Shown here: one piece after another, positions 17,916-24,252 of the stretch
Position numbering within the stretch: position 1 is the stretch's first letter
Layout: each line of letters opens with the position of its first letter
From: a virus
Virus record (IMG/VR): IMGVR_UViG_3300027985_000763
Span: 1-37,572 of that record
Length of the DNA stretch: 37,572 nucleotides
Reading direction: 5' to 3' (one strand)
Notes under the pieces: model-generated
What the model saw: only the letters and a program-made list of their open reading frames with translations
Told to the model about the DNA's origin: nothing
Database searches by the model: none
Position numbers and translations under genes: made by a program

Positions 17916-18581
17916 TTATTTCGGCATGGGCTGCCATTGCCCCCTATTTGCCATTTTTTTGAGTGCATCCATGCCACAAGCCGCGTTCCCAGGAAAAGTC
18001 TGTTTATGGGGCATCTGAGGCCGTCCAGCGGCCATATGCGGTGATGGCCTGTGGTCCAGTTTGCCGGGCTGGTCATCAAAACCAAGCTCGGCTCTACAAT
18101 CCGGGGCAGGAAGCTGCTTGACTTGCCGGACGATATCGGCGCGTATCCGGTTGAAGAAAGCATCCCTGAAAACTTTCAGGGCCTCCCAATCCTTCGCCCT
18201 GTAGTGTCCGTAAACCCTCTTCCAGCCGCCGCAACATTTAGCAGCCCATCCAGCTGACGTGTCCTCAAGGGCCTCACACGTCCCCGCCTTGATAGCCGCC
18301 CTGATTACTGACCACCGGCTTTCCAGCGCAGCGTTGATTTCAGTATCCTGCCGGGCCTTCTTCGCAAGTTCGACACGCCGAATAATTTCTGCCGGGACCG
18401 GGAAGTATGTAAGCTCTTTCCGCGCGGAAGATACAGCAGCCTTGATGTCCCGGAAATCGTACTCTGAAAAATCATAAATCCATTCCACGATTGTCATCTC
18501 TGACGGTGCATCCTTGCCAGCAAGTGATGCCGCAAGGCCCATCATACAGCCGACAAACTGTTTATGCTCAGATTCTTTCAT
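17916..18581 (-). CDS. Helicase-loader-like replication protein (DUF6475 / lambda P-like)
   Basis: 221 aa, AAGGAAGG site. The N-terminal ~70 residues hold the motif WxYDFSEYDFRDIKAAV...FPVPAEIIRR, shared by phage replication proteins that sit just after the initiator (lambda P analogues, DnaC-like loaders) and by the DUF6475 group; GGW at 118-120 is a second landmark. Likely recruits the host DnaB-type helicase to the origin. It sits immediately downstream of the initiator gene, separated by 3 bases. Confidence 0.72.
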   Translation of the reverse strand: MKESEHKQFVGCMMGLAASLAGKDAPSEMTIVEWIYDFSEYDFRDIKAAVSSARKELTYFPVPAEIIRRVELAKKARQDTEINAALESRWSVIRAAIKAGTCEALEDTSAGWAAKCCGGWKRVYGHYRAKDWEALKVFRDAFFNRIRADIVRQVKQLPAPDCRAELGFDDQPGKLDHRPSPHMAAGRPQMPHKQTFPGNAACGMDALKKMANRGQWQPMPK

Positions 18582-18584
18582 GTG

Positions 18585-19625
18585 TTATCCTTCCTTTCTT
18601 TTTCTCAGTATTTCCAGCGCCCTGATTCCAGACAAAATCCCTTCATGCTCCTTCCCTGATAGCCGCCGACCGTCCGGCATCACCCACCGGGTGCGGTCCT
18701 TAACAGCCCCGGTTACAGGGTCAACATATCCATCTTGCCAGCTTTCTTTTGCCATCCGTGCCGGTTGGCCAGCGCCGCCGTGGATAATCTCAAAAGTCCC
18801 AAACTCCTGCTGTTGAGGCGCTGGCGAAGGACGGGCCTGTAATGAGGGTTTCCAGTTTCGGAGGCAGCCTTGAAGAAACCGCTCTTTTTTGTTCCCGGTC
18901 AGATTATCCTCTTCCCGGATCAGGATTTTTATGCAGTCCTCTACGGCTTCAGCAGGAAACTTTTCCCAGTACTCAGCTTCGGCCAGAAGAACTGAATCCT
19001 TGACCTTGCCGGTTCTGCGGCATCTGGCGATTATCCGGAAGGCCTCCTGAATCAGATCGTTCTGCGAAGAAGTGTATCGGGATAGCTTCCCGGCAATTGC
19101 TCCTGACAGGTCGGGTTCGGGCTGAACGGCAGATGACTTGACTTTTTTTGCAGGCCTTTTTTTCTCAGGGGCGTCGGTGGACAAAATAATATTATTAATA
19201 TCAGTCTCAGTTTTAGTATTAGTATTTATAGTAGTGTCCTGCTCGTTGTCCTGTCGTTGTCCTGTTGATGTCCAATCGTTGTCCTGCGGACGCCGCGAAG
19301 CCTTTGTGTCAATGAATCTTACTTGTCCTGTTGATGTCCTATCGTTGTCCTGTCGTTGTATCGTTCGATGTCCTTTTATTTTGCCGAGGCCCTGCCTGCT
19401 ATGCAACCCTGCATATTCAATTTCAAGGCCGTATCGTTTGAGGAAGGTCCTTACTTTGCTCCGGCTCCATTTCCACGCAGCGGCGTAGCCAGACACAGAA
19501 ACAGTCTTGTCGTTATCATAGTCGAGCTGGACAGATATAAGCGCCTCATGCTCTCCATACGGCCTATCTGTCGGGAAAAGTGAGACGATAAACCTTGATA
19601 TGCCTATCCACTCGCCTCTATCCAT
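18585..19625 (-). CDS. Replication initiator (lambda O-like) with internal origin
   Basis: 346 aa. The N-terminal ~95 residues are basic and resemble a winged-helix DNA-binding domain (KWSRSKVRTFLKRYGLEIEY). A low-complexity linker (about residues 95-140, rich in Asp, Asn, Gln, Thr) is encoded by 11-bp tandem repeats, and the C-terminal ~150 residues form a helical domain likely to bind the helicase loader encoded next. The gene start overlaps the Xre gene by 8 bases. The layout of initiator gene, iterons within it and an adjacent AT-rich stretch is that of lambda O. Confidence 0.75.
   Translation of the reverse strand: MDRGEWIGISRFIVSLFPTDRPYGEHEALISVQLDYDNDKTVSVSGYAAAWKWSRSKVRTFLKRYGLEIEYAGLHSRQGLGKIKGHRTIQRQDNDRTSTGQVRFIDTKASRRPQDNDWTSTGQRQDNEQDTTINTNTKTETDINNIILSTDAPEKKRPAKKVKSSAVQPEPDLSGAIAGKLSRYTSSQNDLIQEAFRIIARCRRTGKVKDSVLLAEAEYWEKFPAEAVEDCIKILIREEDNLTGNKKERFLQGCLRNWKPSLQARPSPAPQQQEFGTFEIIHGGAGQPARMAKESWQDGYVDPVTGAVKDRTRWVMPDGRRLSGKEHEGILSGIRALEILRKRKEG
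19183..19374. repeat. Origin of replication: AT-rich stretch plus 11-bp iterons
   Basis: Two clusters of an 11-bp unit (best copies TCGTTGTCCTG at 19243, 19254, 19276 and 19342; degenerate copies at 19265, 19320, 19331, 19353 and 19364). Within each cluster the units are head to tail with exact 11-bp spacing, separated by about 30 bp. Immediately beside the first cluster, 19183-19232 is strongly AT-rich. Iterons inside the initiator gene next to an AT-rich unwinding stretch are the classic lambda-type origin. Inference: this is the replication origin and the N-domain of the gene product binds the repeats. Confidence 0.72.
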
Positions 19626-19836
19626 TCATTGTCTCCCCATCCGCTGTCCTGAAATGCTCCGGTTTAATTCCTGTCTTCATTTCTATGACCATCAGATACG
19701 GAGGGGACGGCGGCCTTACACCGATTTCCCAGTCCCGAACAGTGTAGGGCGATGCCCCGATCATGACCCCGAACCGAATCCTTGACGCATCAAGAGATTT
19801 TCTCGCACTCCGAACATATGCACCGTAATCAATCAT
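19618..19836 (-). CDS. Xre/Cro-like HTH regulator
   Basis: 72 aa, GGAGG seven bases before ATG. Classic lambda-repressor-like helix-turn-helix: IRFGVMIGASPYTVRDWEIG spans helices 2-3, with the conserved W before the end of helix 3. Too short for a full CI repressor; resembles Cro. It leads the initiator operon and is preceded by a promoter with a 10-bp palindrome, so it probably represses its own unit and the one at 21010-21038, whose promoter carries the same core. Confidence 0.82.
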   Translation of the reverse strand: MIDYGAYVRSARKSLDASRIRFGVMIGASPYTVRDWEIGVRPPSPPYLMVIEMKTGIKPEHFRTADGETMNG

Positions 19837-19872
19837 TCCAAGCCTCCGTTTGTTGTGATTAGAGTATCTTTA

Positions 19873-19913
19873 AGCTATAGCTACAAACTACACTATTTTA
19901 AATTTTATGTCAA
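19873..19913 (-). promoter_or_regulatory. Promoter and operator of the Xre-initiator unit
   Basis: Minus strand: TTGACA (rc of 19908-19913), 17-base spacer, TAGTTT (rc of 19885-19890). The palindrome AGCTATAGCT at 19873-19882 lies about at the transcription start, where a bound repressor would block initiation. Its core GCTATAGC recurs in the promoter at 21010-21038. Confidence 0.65.
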
Positions 19914-19920
19914 CCTGAAA

Positions 19921-19953
19921 CTGCCGGGGCCACGATTTTTGCAGTCCCGGCAG
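19921..19953 (-). terminator. Terminator after the HTH gene (upstream transcription unit)
   Basis: 8-bp perfect stem CTGCCGGG / CCCGGCAG with a 17-nt loop; on the minus strand it is followed by TTTCAGGTT, a weak U-tract. It separates the upstream HTH gene from the promoter of the Xre unit, 8 bases away. Confidence 0.6.
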
Positions 19954-19964
19954 ATGAGATTATA

Positions 19965-20168
19965 TTATGACCGAGGGCTTATCCGGGGCTTGACATTTTC
20001 CAGCAGCCATTCCACTGCCGACGGGTAATAGAGCGTTGTCTTCCGCCCCGCCTTTTCGGCGAGACCGGCCTCTACAAACATTTTGGAGTGGTTGGTGACG
20101 GTTTTGCGTGATAAGCCGGTCAATTTCGCAACCTCACCGCAGAACATTTTGTCGTTTAATATCACCAT
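19965..20168 (-). CDS. Winged-helix/HTH DNA-binding protein
   Basis: 67 aa from ATG 20168, chosen because GGAAGG lies just upstream; the earlier ATG (20180) contributes that Shine-Dalgarno. The sequence FCGEVAKLTGLSRKTVTNHSK forms an HTH of the MarR/GntR or terminase-small style with a following strand region (KAGRKTTLYYPSAVEWL). Encoded last in its unit, between the Cys-rich gene and a terminator. Probable transcriptional regulator. Confidence 0.65.
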   Translation of the reverse strand: MVILNDKMFCGEVAKLTGLSRKTVTNHSKMFVEAGLAEKAGRKTTLYYPSAVEWLLENVKPRISPRS

Positions 20169-21006: not shown

Positions 21007-21038
21007 GGGCTATAGCCCTATAGGCCCTACAATGTCAA
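21007..21038 (-). promoter_or_regulatory. Promoter with palindromic operator, KOW/Cys-rich unit
   Basis: Minus strand: TTGACA (rc of 21033-21038), 17-base spacer, CTATAG (rc of 21010-21015). The -10 lies inside the 12-bp palindrome GGGCTATAGCCC (21007-21018), which is itself within a longer imperfect palindrome beginning TTGTA and ending TACAA (about 21001-21032). The GCTATAGC core is identical to that at the Xre promoter, so a common repressor is likely. Confidence 0.68.
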
Positions 21039-21135: not shown

Positions 21136-21624
21136 TCAGAAGGGAATATCGTCATCATCCGGATAACCGTTACCCTGTCCCTGATAGGAGGGTTGATGTG
21201 GCGGAGGCTGATAACCGCCGGGAGGAGCATATCCGCCGCCCTGTTGCGGAGGCTTCTGGTATCCCCCGCCCTGCGGTGGTGCATAACTGCCCTGTTGACC
21301 GGCATCTCCCCTTGATTCGATAAACTCGAAGCTGTTGACGATAATATCGGTAGTATAGTGTTTTATTCCGTCTTTCTCATATTGCCCGTAACTGAGCTTC
21401 CCCTCGATATATATCTTGCTGCCCTTGCGGAAATGCTTGGCAATGACTTCCGCCCGCCGTTCAAACGCTACACAGCGGTGCCATTGGGTGACTTCCGTGC
21501 CATCCTTGCGCTTGTCGGATGTCGCTATAGAAAGCCTGCATGTCGCCATGCCGCTCTGCGTATAGGTCAGTTCCGGGTCGCGTCCCAGATTTCCGAGAAG
21601 GATTACTTTATTTACACCGGCCAT
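21136..21624 (-). CDS. ssb: Single-stranded DNA-binding protein
   Basis: 162 aa, AAAAGGAG site. The N-terminal ~105 residues are a complete OB-fold SSB (opening NKVILLGNLGRDPEL, then WHRCVAFERRAE, KGSKIYIEGKL, TDIIVNSFEF). A Gly/Gln/Pro-rich linker follows, and the acidic tip DDDDIPF is the bacterial SSB C-tail that docks replication proteins. It coats single-stranded DNA during phage replication and recombination. It is the last gene of the unit and is followed by a strong terminator. Confidence 0.95.
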   Translation of the reverse strand: MAGVNKVILLGNLGRDPELTYTQSGMATCRLSIATSDKRKDGTEVTQWHRCVAFERRAEVIAKHFRKGSKIYIEGKLSYGQYEKDGIKHYTTDIIVNSFEFIESRGDAGQQGSYAPPQGGGYQKPPQQGGGYAPPGGYQPPPHQPSYQGQGNGYPDDDDIPF

Positions 21625-23325: not shown

Positions 23326-24252
23326 TTACAGATAGAGTTTTATACTTTCAGGGTTTCTGTATCCACGCGCCGGGCATCCGGATGTTTTCCAGTCATGATA
23401 TTCGGAAACGAGCGATTTGTAAGCCTGCATAGCATATTCCCGGCTCTGGCTGTCTATTGTCAAGGCTTGGCATAAAAACGGCGGCTTTTTTTCGGCAAAA
23501 AGAAAAATCATTGGGAAGGTGTGACCTGACTTGACTGCTGATAGTCCCTCCGTGTAATGTATATCCTGTATCCAGTATCTGCTTTTGACCATCGCCCGGC
23601 CTTGCGACATTGATGCACTTGTTTTTAAATCAAAAACAAGTGTTGCATTATCAGCCGAGCGCGTAATATAAGCGTCCGGCAGGGCTTTCTTGTCGCTCCA
23701 GTAGAGCGGCTGCTGGAAGGTGCACATCGTAAAAAAATCGCCGACCTTGCCGCGTACAGTCTGCCCGGAGCGTAGTTCAGGATAGATAAATTCTGTTTTG
23801 AGCATGTTCACCGCCATCTGGCAAAGCATCGCGAATTCATCGGCAGCAATCGGATAGCAACCGGGGTGTTCCTGACAGGCGTCAAGTATTGCATGTAGCG
23901 CCTTATATGTTCCGTTTAGGGCCGGGGATTCATCTTTTTTCGCTTTCTTGTTGTAGATGTAAAATTGACCAAGATTCGCAGCAGATTCAATCCACGCTGG
24001 ATTGTATGATGCCGGTATATTACCGGAATGCACAAAAAAGCCCTTGCCAAACTCGCCATAAACCGGGTCTTTTCCGGAAAGAGTGTCCAGCAGGACAGCC
24101 TCGAAAGCATTACCGATAGCCATCTCTTGTGACATACGCCTTTCGGCCAACCGCATCAGGGCTATGTCGGGACCGTCATAAAAATCAGCTAGCGAGGAAT
24201 AGTTGATCCCTCCATGCTGCCTATATTCGGATATTTCTTTTTTGTTTGCCAT
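23326..24252 (-). CDS. RecE-like PD-(D/E)XK exonuclease
   Basis: 308 aa, GGAGG site. The PDDEXK core is visible: GNAFEAVL (residues 47-54), the PD-x(14)-D-LK block with D193, D208 and K210 (ALPDAYI ... FDLKTS), and the QxxxY motif at 229-233 within WIQDIHYTEGL. This layout is that of RecE/DUF3799 exonucleases that resect 5' ends so that an annealing protein can act. It is directly upstream of the annealing-like gene. Confidence 0.82.
   Translation of the reverse strand: MANKKEISEYRQHGGINYSSLADFYDGPDIALMRLAERRMSQEMAIGNAFEAVLLDTLSGKDPVYGEFGKGFFVHSGNIPASYNPAWIESAANLGQFYIYNKKAKKDESPALNGTYKALHAILDACQEHPGCYPIAADEFAMLCQMAVNMLKTEFIYPELRSGQTVRGKVGDFFTMCTFQQPLYWSDKKALPDAYITRSADNATLVFDLKTSASMSQGRAMVKSRYWIQDIHYTEGLSAVKSGHTFPMIFLFAEKKPPFLCQALTIDSQSREYAMQAYKSLVSEYHDWKTSGCPARGYRNPESIKLYL

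Follow-up and report, generated by a model that had tools for sequence, protein, structure and literature searches.

Our analysis argues for a theta replication origin that lies inside a phage initiator gene: the initiator would bind ten sites and open an adjoining AT-rich element, to which a helicase would be delivered. We give this reading a probability of about 0.88. The window, i.e. the whole stretch of DNA that was analysed, is a 37,572-base virus record of a tailed phage in which a major tail protein, a tape measure protein and a large terminase are present. Its minus strand carries a block consisting of an exonuclease VIII-like protein, a single-strand binding protein (SSB), two small HTH genes, the initiator gene and a loader-like gene:

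23326..24252, minus strand: exonuclease VIII-like recombination gene, in the same block as the initiator (phrog_412, E 9.5e-17)
21136..21624, minus strand: SSB gene of the replication/recombination block (PF00436, E 2.5e-30; phrog_44, E 2e-49)
19618..19836, minus strand: 72-aa HTH gene, directly upstream of the initiator and overlapping its start
18585..19625, minus strand: initiator (replisome organizer) gene, P0001, 346 aa (from translation, AlphaFold and homologues)
17916..18581, minus strand: P0002 (221 aa), a probable helicase-loader-like protein whose gene follows the initiator directly on its downstream side

The non-coding stretch between the two small HTH genes (19840-19965) contains an overlapping palindrome at 19860-19895 and reaches 78% AT at 19859; it is likely a control region. 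A 9-bp repeat, CTATAGGCC, is found in two copies near a gene start at 21010-21029.

The core GGACA (TGTCC on the plus strand) occurs nine times in the initiator gene (18585-19625, minus strand), each time inside 19235-19373, a 139-bp stretch for which well under one copy is expected by chance. Together with a degenerate core (ATACA, plus strand TGTAT, 19357-19361) the nine perfect copies make up ten sites at steps of 12-11-11-11-44-11-11-11-12 bp. On the plus strand the cores start at 19235, 19247, 19258, 19269 and 19280 on the AT-proximal side and at 19324, 19335, 19346, 19357 (degenerate) and 19369 on the AT-distal side. Since the clusters are 44 bp apart (4 x 11), both share one 11-bp register. 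No inverted repeat was found in the iterons; the sites are ten non-palindromic 5-bp cores at 11-bp steps. The elements of the array are as follows:

19369..19373, minus strand: iteron site 1; its core is GGACA and the step to site 2 is 12 bp
19320..19363, minus strand: AT-distal cluster of four 11-bp units, cores 19324-28, 19335-39, 19346-50 and 19357-61 (degenerate ATACA)
19285..19323, no strand assigned: inter-cluster spacer, 39 bp between cores and 44 bp core to core, encoding the VRFID segment
19243..19286, minus strand: AT-proximal cluster of four 11-bp units, cores 19247-51, 19258-62, 19269-73 and 19280-84
19235..19239, minus strand: iteron site 10, adjoining the AT-rich element; its core is GGACA and the step to site 9 is 12 bp
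19184..19233, no strand assigned: putative DNA-unwinding element, AT-rich (84% AT) and containing 6-bp repeats of the TATTAG type

An earlier, sequence-only reading had described two head-to-tail clusters of 11-bp units inside the gene, and these are indeed present, cluster 1 (19243-19286) with four units. The exact 11-bp phase that it gave for 19320-19374 holds for the first four units (to 19363), but the last core (19369-19373) sits 12 bp further on. It had overlooked the site at 19235-19239, and also that the first and the last step measure 12 bp and that the 44-bp gap leaves both clusters in one register.

Scored for the ten-site layout, the array reaches 48/50; elsewhere in the window the score stays at or below 28/50, the array's own shifted placements aside. 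No codon permutation out of 5000 attained 48/50 (max 31), nor did any of 5000 synonymous shuffles (mean 40.1, sd 1.7, max 46), which shows that the DNA is under selection beyond the protein's demands. This layout test supersedes one on plain lag-11 identity, which was moderately significant (64 vs 52.4 in synonymous shuffles, sd 4.5). One might still suppose that the repeat is merely a low-complexity protein linker whose code looks periodic by accident. The encoded linker is of low complexity, as had been noted before (its translation runs QDNDRTSTGQ-like twice, then TTINTNTKTETD), and the protein sequence alone scores high, with a synonymous-shuffle mean of 40/50. However, 11 is not a multiple of three, so that successive units are read in three different frames, and the observed score lies beyond every synonymous shuffle; we consider an accidental periodicity very unlikely.

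The IMG/VR motif scans (counted among the matches listed) gave no sign of an excess of GGACA over other 11-bp cores. The control scans at 11 bp, for GACAG and GCAAG, are both poor controls, the former because it overlaps the GGACAG unit and the latter because some GCAAG arrays resemble iterons of other initiators. Arrays of the TTGCAAGTTAG type with an 11-bp step were also seen (L216, L228, L232, L234, L237, L248, L249, L262, L281 and L295), in several cases shortly before an ATG; these may be another origin or operator class.

The AT-rich stretch flanking the array, previously placed at 19183-19232, was recovered at 19184-19233. Though coding, it is the most AT-rich 50-mer of the 37.6-kb window and also the thermodynamically least stable one (nearest-neighbour dG -48.6 vs a mean of -69.8, sd 5.0). 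Codon choice within it is skewed towards codons ending in T: threonine is encoded by ACT in 6/6 cases vs 3/15 elsewhere in the gene (Fisher p 0.0015), and asparagine by AAT in 4/4 vs 1/8 (p 0.01). On the coding strand the element begins beside the last site with a conserved CACTACTATAAAT, and in the DNA alignment its start is kept across relatives as CACTACTATAAATCCTAA. A DnaA-trio-like reading of the conserved ATAGTAG beside the array was dropped, because the linker's ACT codons yield ATAGTAG as easily. The AT-rich element is itself repetitive in the initiator family, with 6-bp repeats of the CCTAAT/CCTGAT type; the loci listed for such elements are the window (19184-19233), L338, L331, L333 and L006. 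Pseudomonas and Vibrio phage initiator genes carry 7-bp CTAACCA repeats mid-gene. A GC-skew check for the origin was uninformative, as the skew tracks gene orientation, with no extremum at 19.2 kb.

P0001 comprises an N-terminal winged helix (aa ~11-72), an iteron-encoded low-complexity linker (~84-150) and a helical C-domain (~174-258). AlphaFold predicts the winged helix with a pLDDT of about 80-94 for aa 11-70. In structure comparison this domain best matches winged helices of a generic kind, with Z 5-5.5 across some 50 residues, and so low a Z supports the fold class only; Foldseek gave no significant match for either model. The iteron-coded stretch is modelled with low confidence, the linker being probably disordered by this prediction, and the helical C-part with low to middling confidence. 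P0001 has no Pfam match, no Phage_rep_O match up to E 1, and reaches no curated family threshold; 13 members of the initiator family were likewise without a Phage_rep_O match up to E 0.1. Against phrog_186 (DnaD-like helicase loader) P0001 gives a weak E of 0.011, and its N-domain alone finds weak matches, Staphylococcus phage initiators among them. Members of the family match PHROGs for replication initiation, replisome organizers and DnaD-like loaders: relatives in A1 match phrog_2514 (up to E 8e-33), and the distant relative L342 matches 'replication initiation O-like' (E 1e-18). The C-domain is common to P0001 and L321/L322, which match DnaD-like loader PHROGs (PHROG 186, 2514 and 4880 being DnaD-like loaders/replisome organizers). 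Among relatives it is also exchangeable, and the C-domains present there have matches to named replication proteins, replisome organizers and DnaD-like loaders. Judged from such matches, P0001 seems, weakly, to be closest to the DnaD-like/replisome-organizer phage initiators.

Scans of IMG/VR for four GGACA or four GACAG at 11-bp steps yielded at least 12 loci with P0001 homologues, at 25-33% identity in alignment among the matches listed (phmmer E 2e-30 to 2e-9 among pooled ORFs). Homologues of P0001 as a whole come from uncultured phages and from contigs of Desulfobacterota, Chlorobiota and Geobacter. Those obtained by the motif scans share the ten-site layout; in a sub-group the step at the distal end is 11 bp, not 12, and the protein is shorter before the first cluster. 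As they were found via GGACA/GACAG patterns, the presence of sites in them is not independent, whereas their 44- and 12-bp steps are. A protein search with P0001 alone found nothing in IMG/VR, GTDB contigs or INPHARED. Protein-profile searches of IMG/VR and GTDB contigs were used because searching with the sites is circular, and those relatives were scored that were newly found by protein profile and reach over the linker. In relatives found by protein similarity only, namely L307/L336 (Desulfosarcina cetonica), L309, L319, L337 (Chlorobiaceae), L338 (Desulfobacteraceae), L340 (a Cellvibrionaceae MAG) and L342 (Geobacter), the layout score is 36-48/50. Cores have drifted to GAACA, GAGCA or GATCA in most of the protein-found relatives; the adjacent CACTACTATAAAT is retained in relatives, also where the core has become GAACA or GAGCA. 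In L314-L317 the second cluster is replaced, at the same length, by about four copies of CACAATCTCCC with an exact 11-bp period (33/33). This repeat adjoins the same CACTACTATAAAT; by the ten-site score L314-L317 do not fit. Period and layout thus persist while core and peptide change, and that L314-L317 retain a period of 11 bp in DNA coding for quite another peptide again speaks against a mere linker. The 44-bp gap lies where the protein alignment has no gaps, and its length may therefore be fixed in part by constraint on the protein. In L341 (Chlorobiaceae MAG, 584-895) the initiator frame stops after 103 aa within the iteron region and the C-part lies in a separate frame; this break is a decayed prophage or a sequence error.

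The same comparison bears on the idea of a minisatellite made by slippage and devoid of function. Slippage does generate short head-to-tail repeats, and viral contigs contain 11-bp arrays built on many different cores. Yet in the present family the positions between the cores vary while the core and the ten positions are kept at 25-33% protein identity, the irregular 12- and 44-bp steps included, and we regard such an origin by slippage as extremely improbable.

Directly after the initiator, L306, L309, L318, L313, L147, L182 and L338 carry a DnaB-like helicase (phrog_19, E 9e-62 to 4e-114), and L305 and L310 a small loader-like protein of the P0002 kind. P0002 itself resembles two proteins: in Vibrio phage vB_ValP_FGH (E 5e-4) the neighbour of 'primosomal protein I', and in L310 (pairwise E 4e-5) the product encoded directly after the initiator, which in turn matches a PHROG helicase loader weakly (E 0.026). 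From its position and these weak matches P0002 is probably a helicase loader. No DnaB-like helicase gene was found within the 37.6-kb window.

Alternatively, instead of an origin, the sites could be operators through which the gene is autoregulated, or an array of the partition/centromere-like type. Iteron arrays have a partition role in other replicons (parC iterons, PMC6669507), and small HTH genes lie just upstream of the initiator. The array, however, is deep in the coding sequence instead of at a promoter, and in relatives it is tied to the adjacent melting element and to helicase/loader genes. We therefore hold a purely regulatory or partition array to be unlikely; the array may have a double role, as origin and as operator or partition site.

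An origin embedded in the initiator gene, as proposed by the sequence-only reading, is supported by the layout (a winged-helix N-domain, then iterons in the DNA that codes for the linker, the AT-rich stretch and a C-domain), by the conserved site geometry, by selection at the DNA level and by the helicase or loader-like gene downstream in relatives. We infer binding by P0001, melting at 19184-19233, helicase loading and origin activity. In the proposed mechanism the N-terminal winged helix would bind the ten GGACA sites with about one protomer per helical turn. The protomers would all lie on one face (11-bp steps, with the 44-bp gap equalling four turns), with cooperative loading and a nucleoprotein complex built over about 140 bp. 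Since the sites recur every 11 bp and the DNA helix makes a turn about every 10.5 bp, the face would shift gradually from site to site and the complex would form a gentle superhelix. Strain from this complex would open the AT-rich element next to it (19184-19233), and there the host DnaB helicase would be delivered by the C-terminal domain and the loader-like P0002. More tentatively, and as a conjecture that we think could well be wrong, the family may represent a separate class of phage origins in which the geometry and not the sequence is invariant. Two phased five-site blocks would carry a one-face winged-helix filament that pulls open an AT-rich element with its own 6-bp repeats, the core being free to drift or to be swapped together with the initiator.

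For a set of uncultured phages and prophages, with relatives in contigs of Desulfobacterota, Chlorobiota and Geobacter, the analysis provides a predicted origin. It would also give a simple rule for finding origins in unannotated phage genomes, namely to look in initiator genes for ten sites with this fixed spacing. A fixed geometry with drifting cores also offers a natural system for studying the co-evolution of an initiator and its sites, both of which are written in the same DNA. In the open literature we found no paper on the 11-bp iterons of the P0001 initiator family; an earlier mention of similar arrays is possible.

The two models worked out by experiment are phages lambda and SPP1. 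Phage lambda has four iterons and Stx phages six, each an inverted repeat, in the middle of gene O (PMC7466680). The likeness to these phages lies in iterons for initiator binding (predicted in our case) that sit mid-gene in the initiator's own coding sequence and adjoin an AT-rich tract (PMC7466680), in a companion helicase-delivery gene that comes next (P in lambda, here probably P0002), and in iterons that encode a disordered linker, as in lambda O (predicted here). The term 'lambda-like', as originally applied to this region, hence stands for the layout but not for ancestry: P0001 has no Phage_rep_O match, and in place of four inverted-repeat iterons the gene carries short GGACA units, ten in all and none palindromic, which follow one another at one per turn within two phased blocks. 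Bacillus phage SPP1 has oriL in gene 38, the loader gp39, the helicase gp40 and a second origin, oriR (PMC6316719). There, too, a replisome organizer binds direct repeats in its own gene beside an AT-rich unwinding element (binding being predicted in our case), with loader and DnaB-type helicase genes in the module. Unlike SPP1 with its oriR, the window yielded no second ten-site array, nor a helicase gene; the likeness to SPP1 is one of layout. In a set of 17 initiator genes, chosen from named phages by protein similarity, the strongest period is 11 bp in Lactobacillus BH1, phiAT3 and Enterococcus EH-TP1 and 22 bp in Staphylococcus phi879 and Pseudomonas vB_PaeS_AV001; the rest have 7, 8, 13, another period or none above chance. 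BH1, phiAT3, EH-TP1 and phi879 resemble the present locus in an 11-bp (or 22-bp) period mid-gene followed by an A-rich stretch; their initiator genes are preceded by SSB or recombination genes and have loader genes behind them. They differ in their units (GAACAGCTACC, GTCAATCAAnn, AACGACAGCAA and others), and the ten-site split layout was not seen in them. One-turn intragenic arrays are thus not rare in such initiators, with unit sequences that differ, and the origin described here belongs to a known kind and not to a new one; what appears to be new is the set of ten short one-turn sites in two phased blocks, common to a family of uncultured phages.
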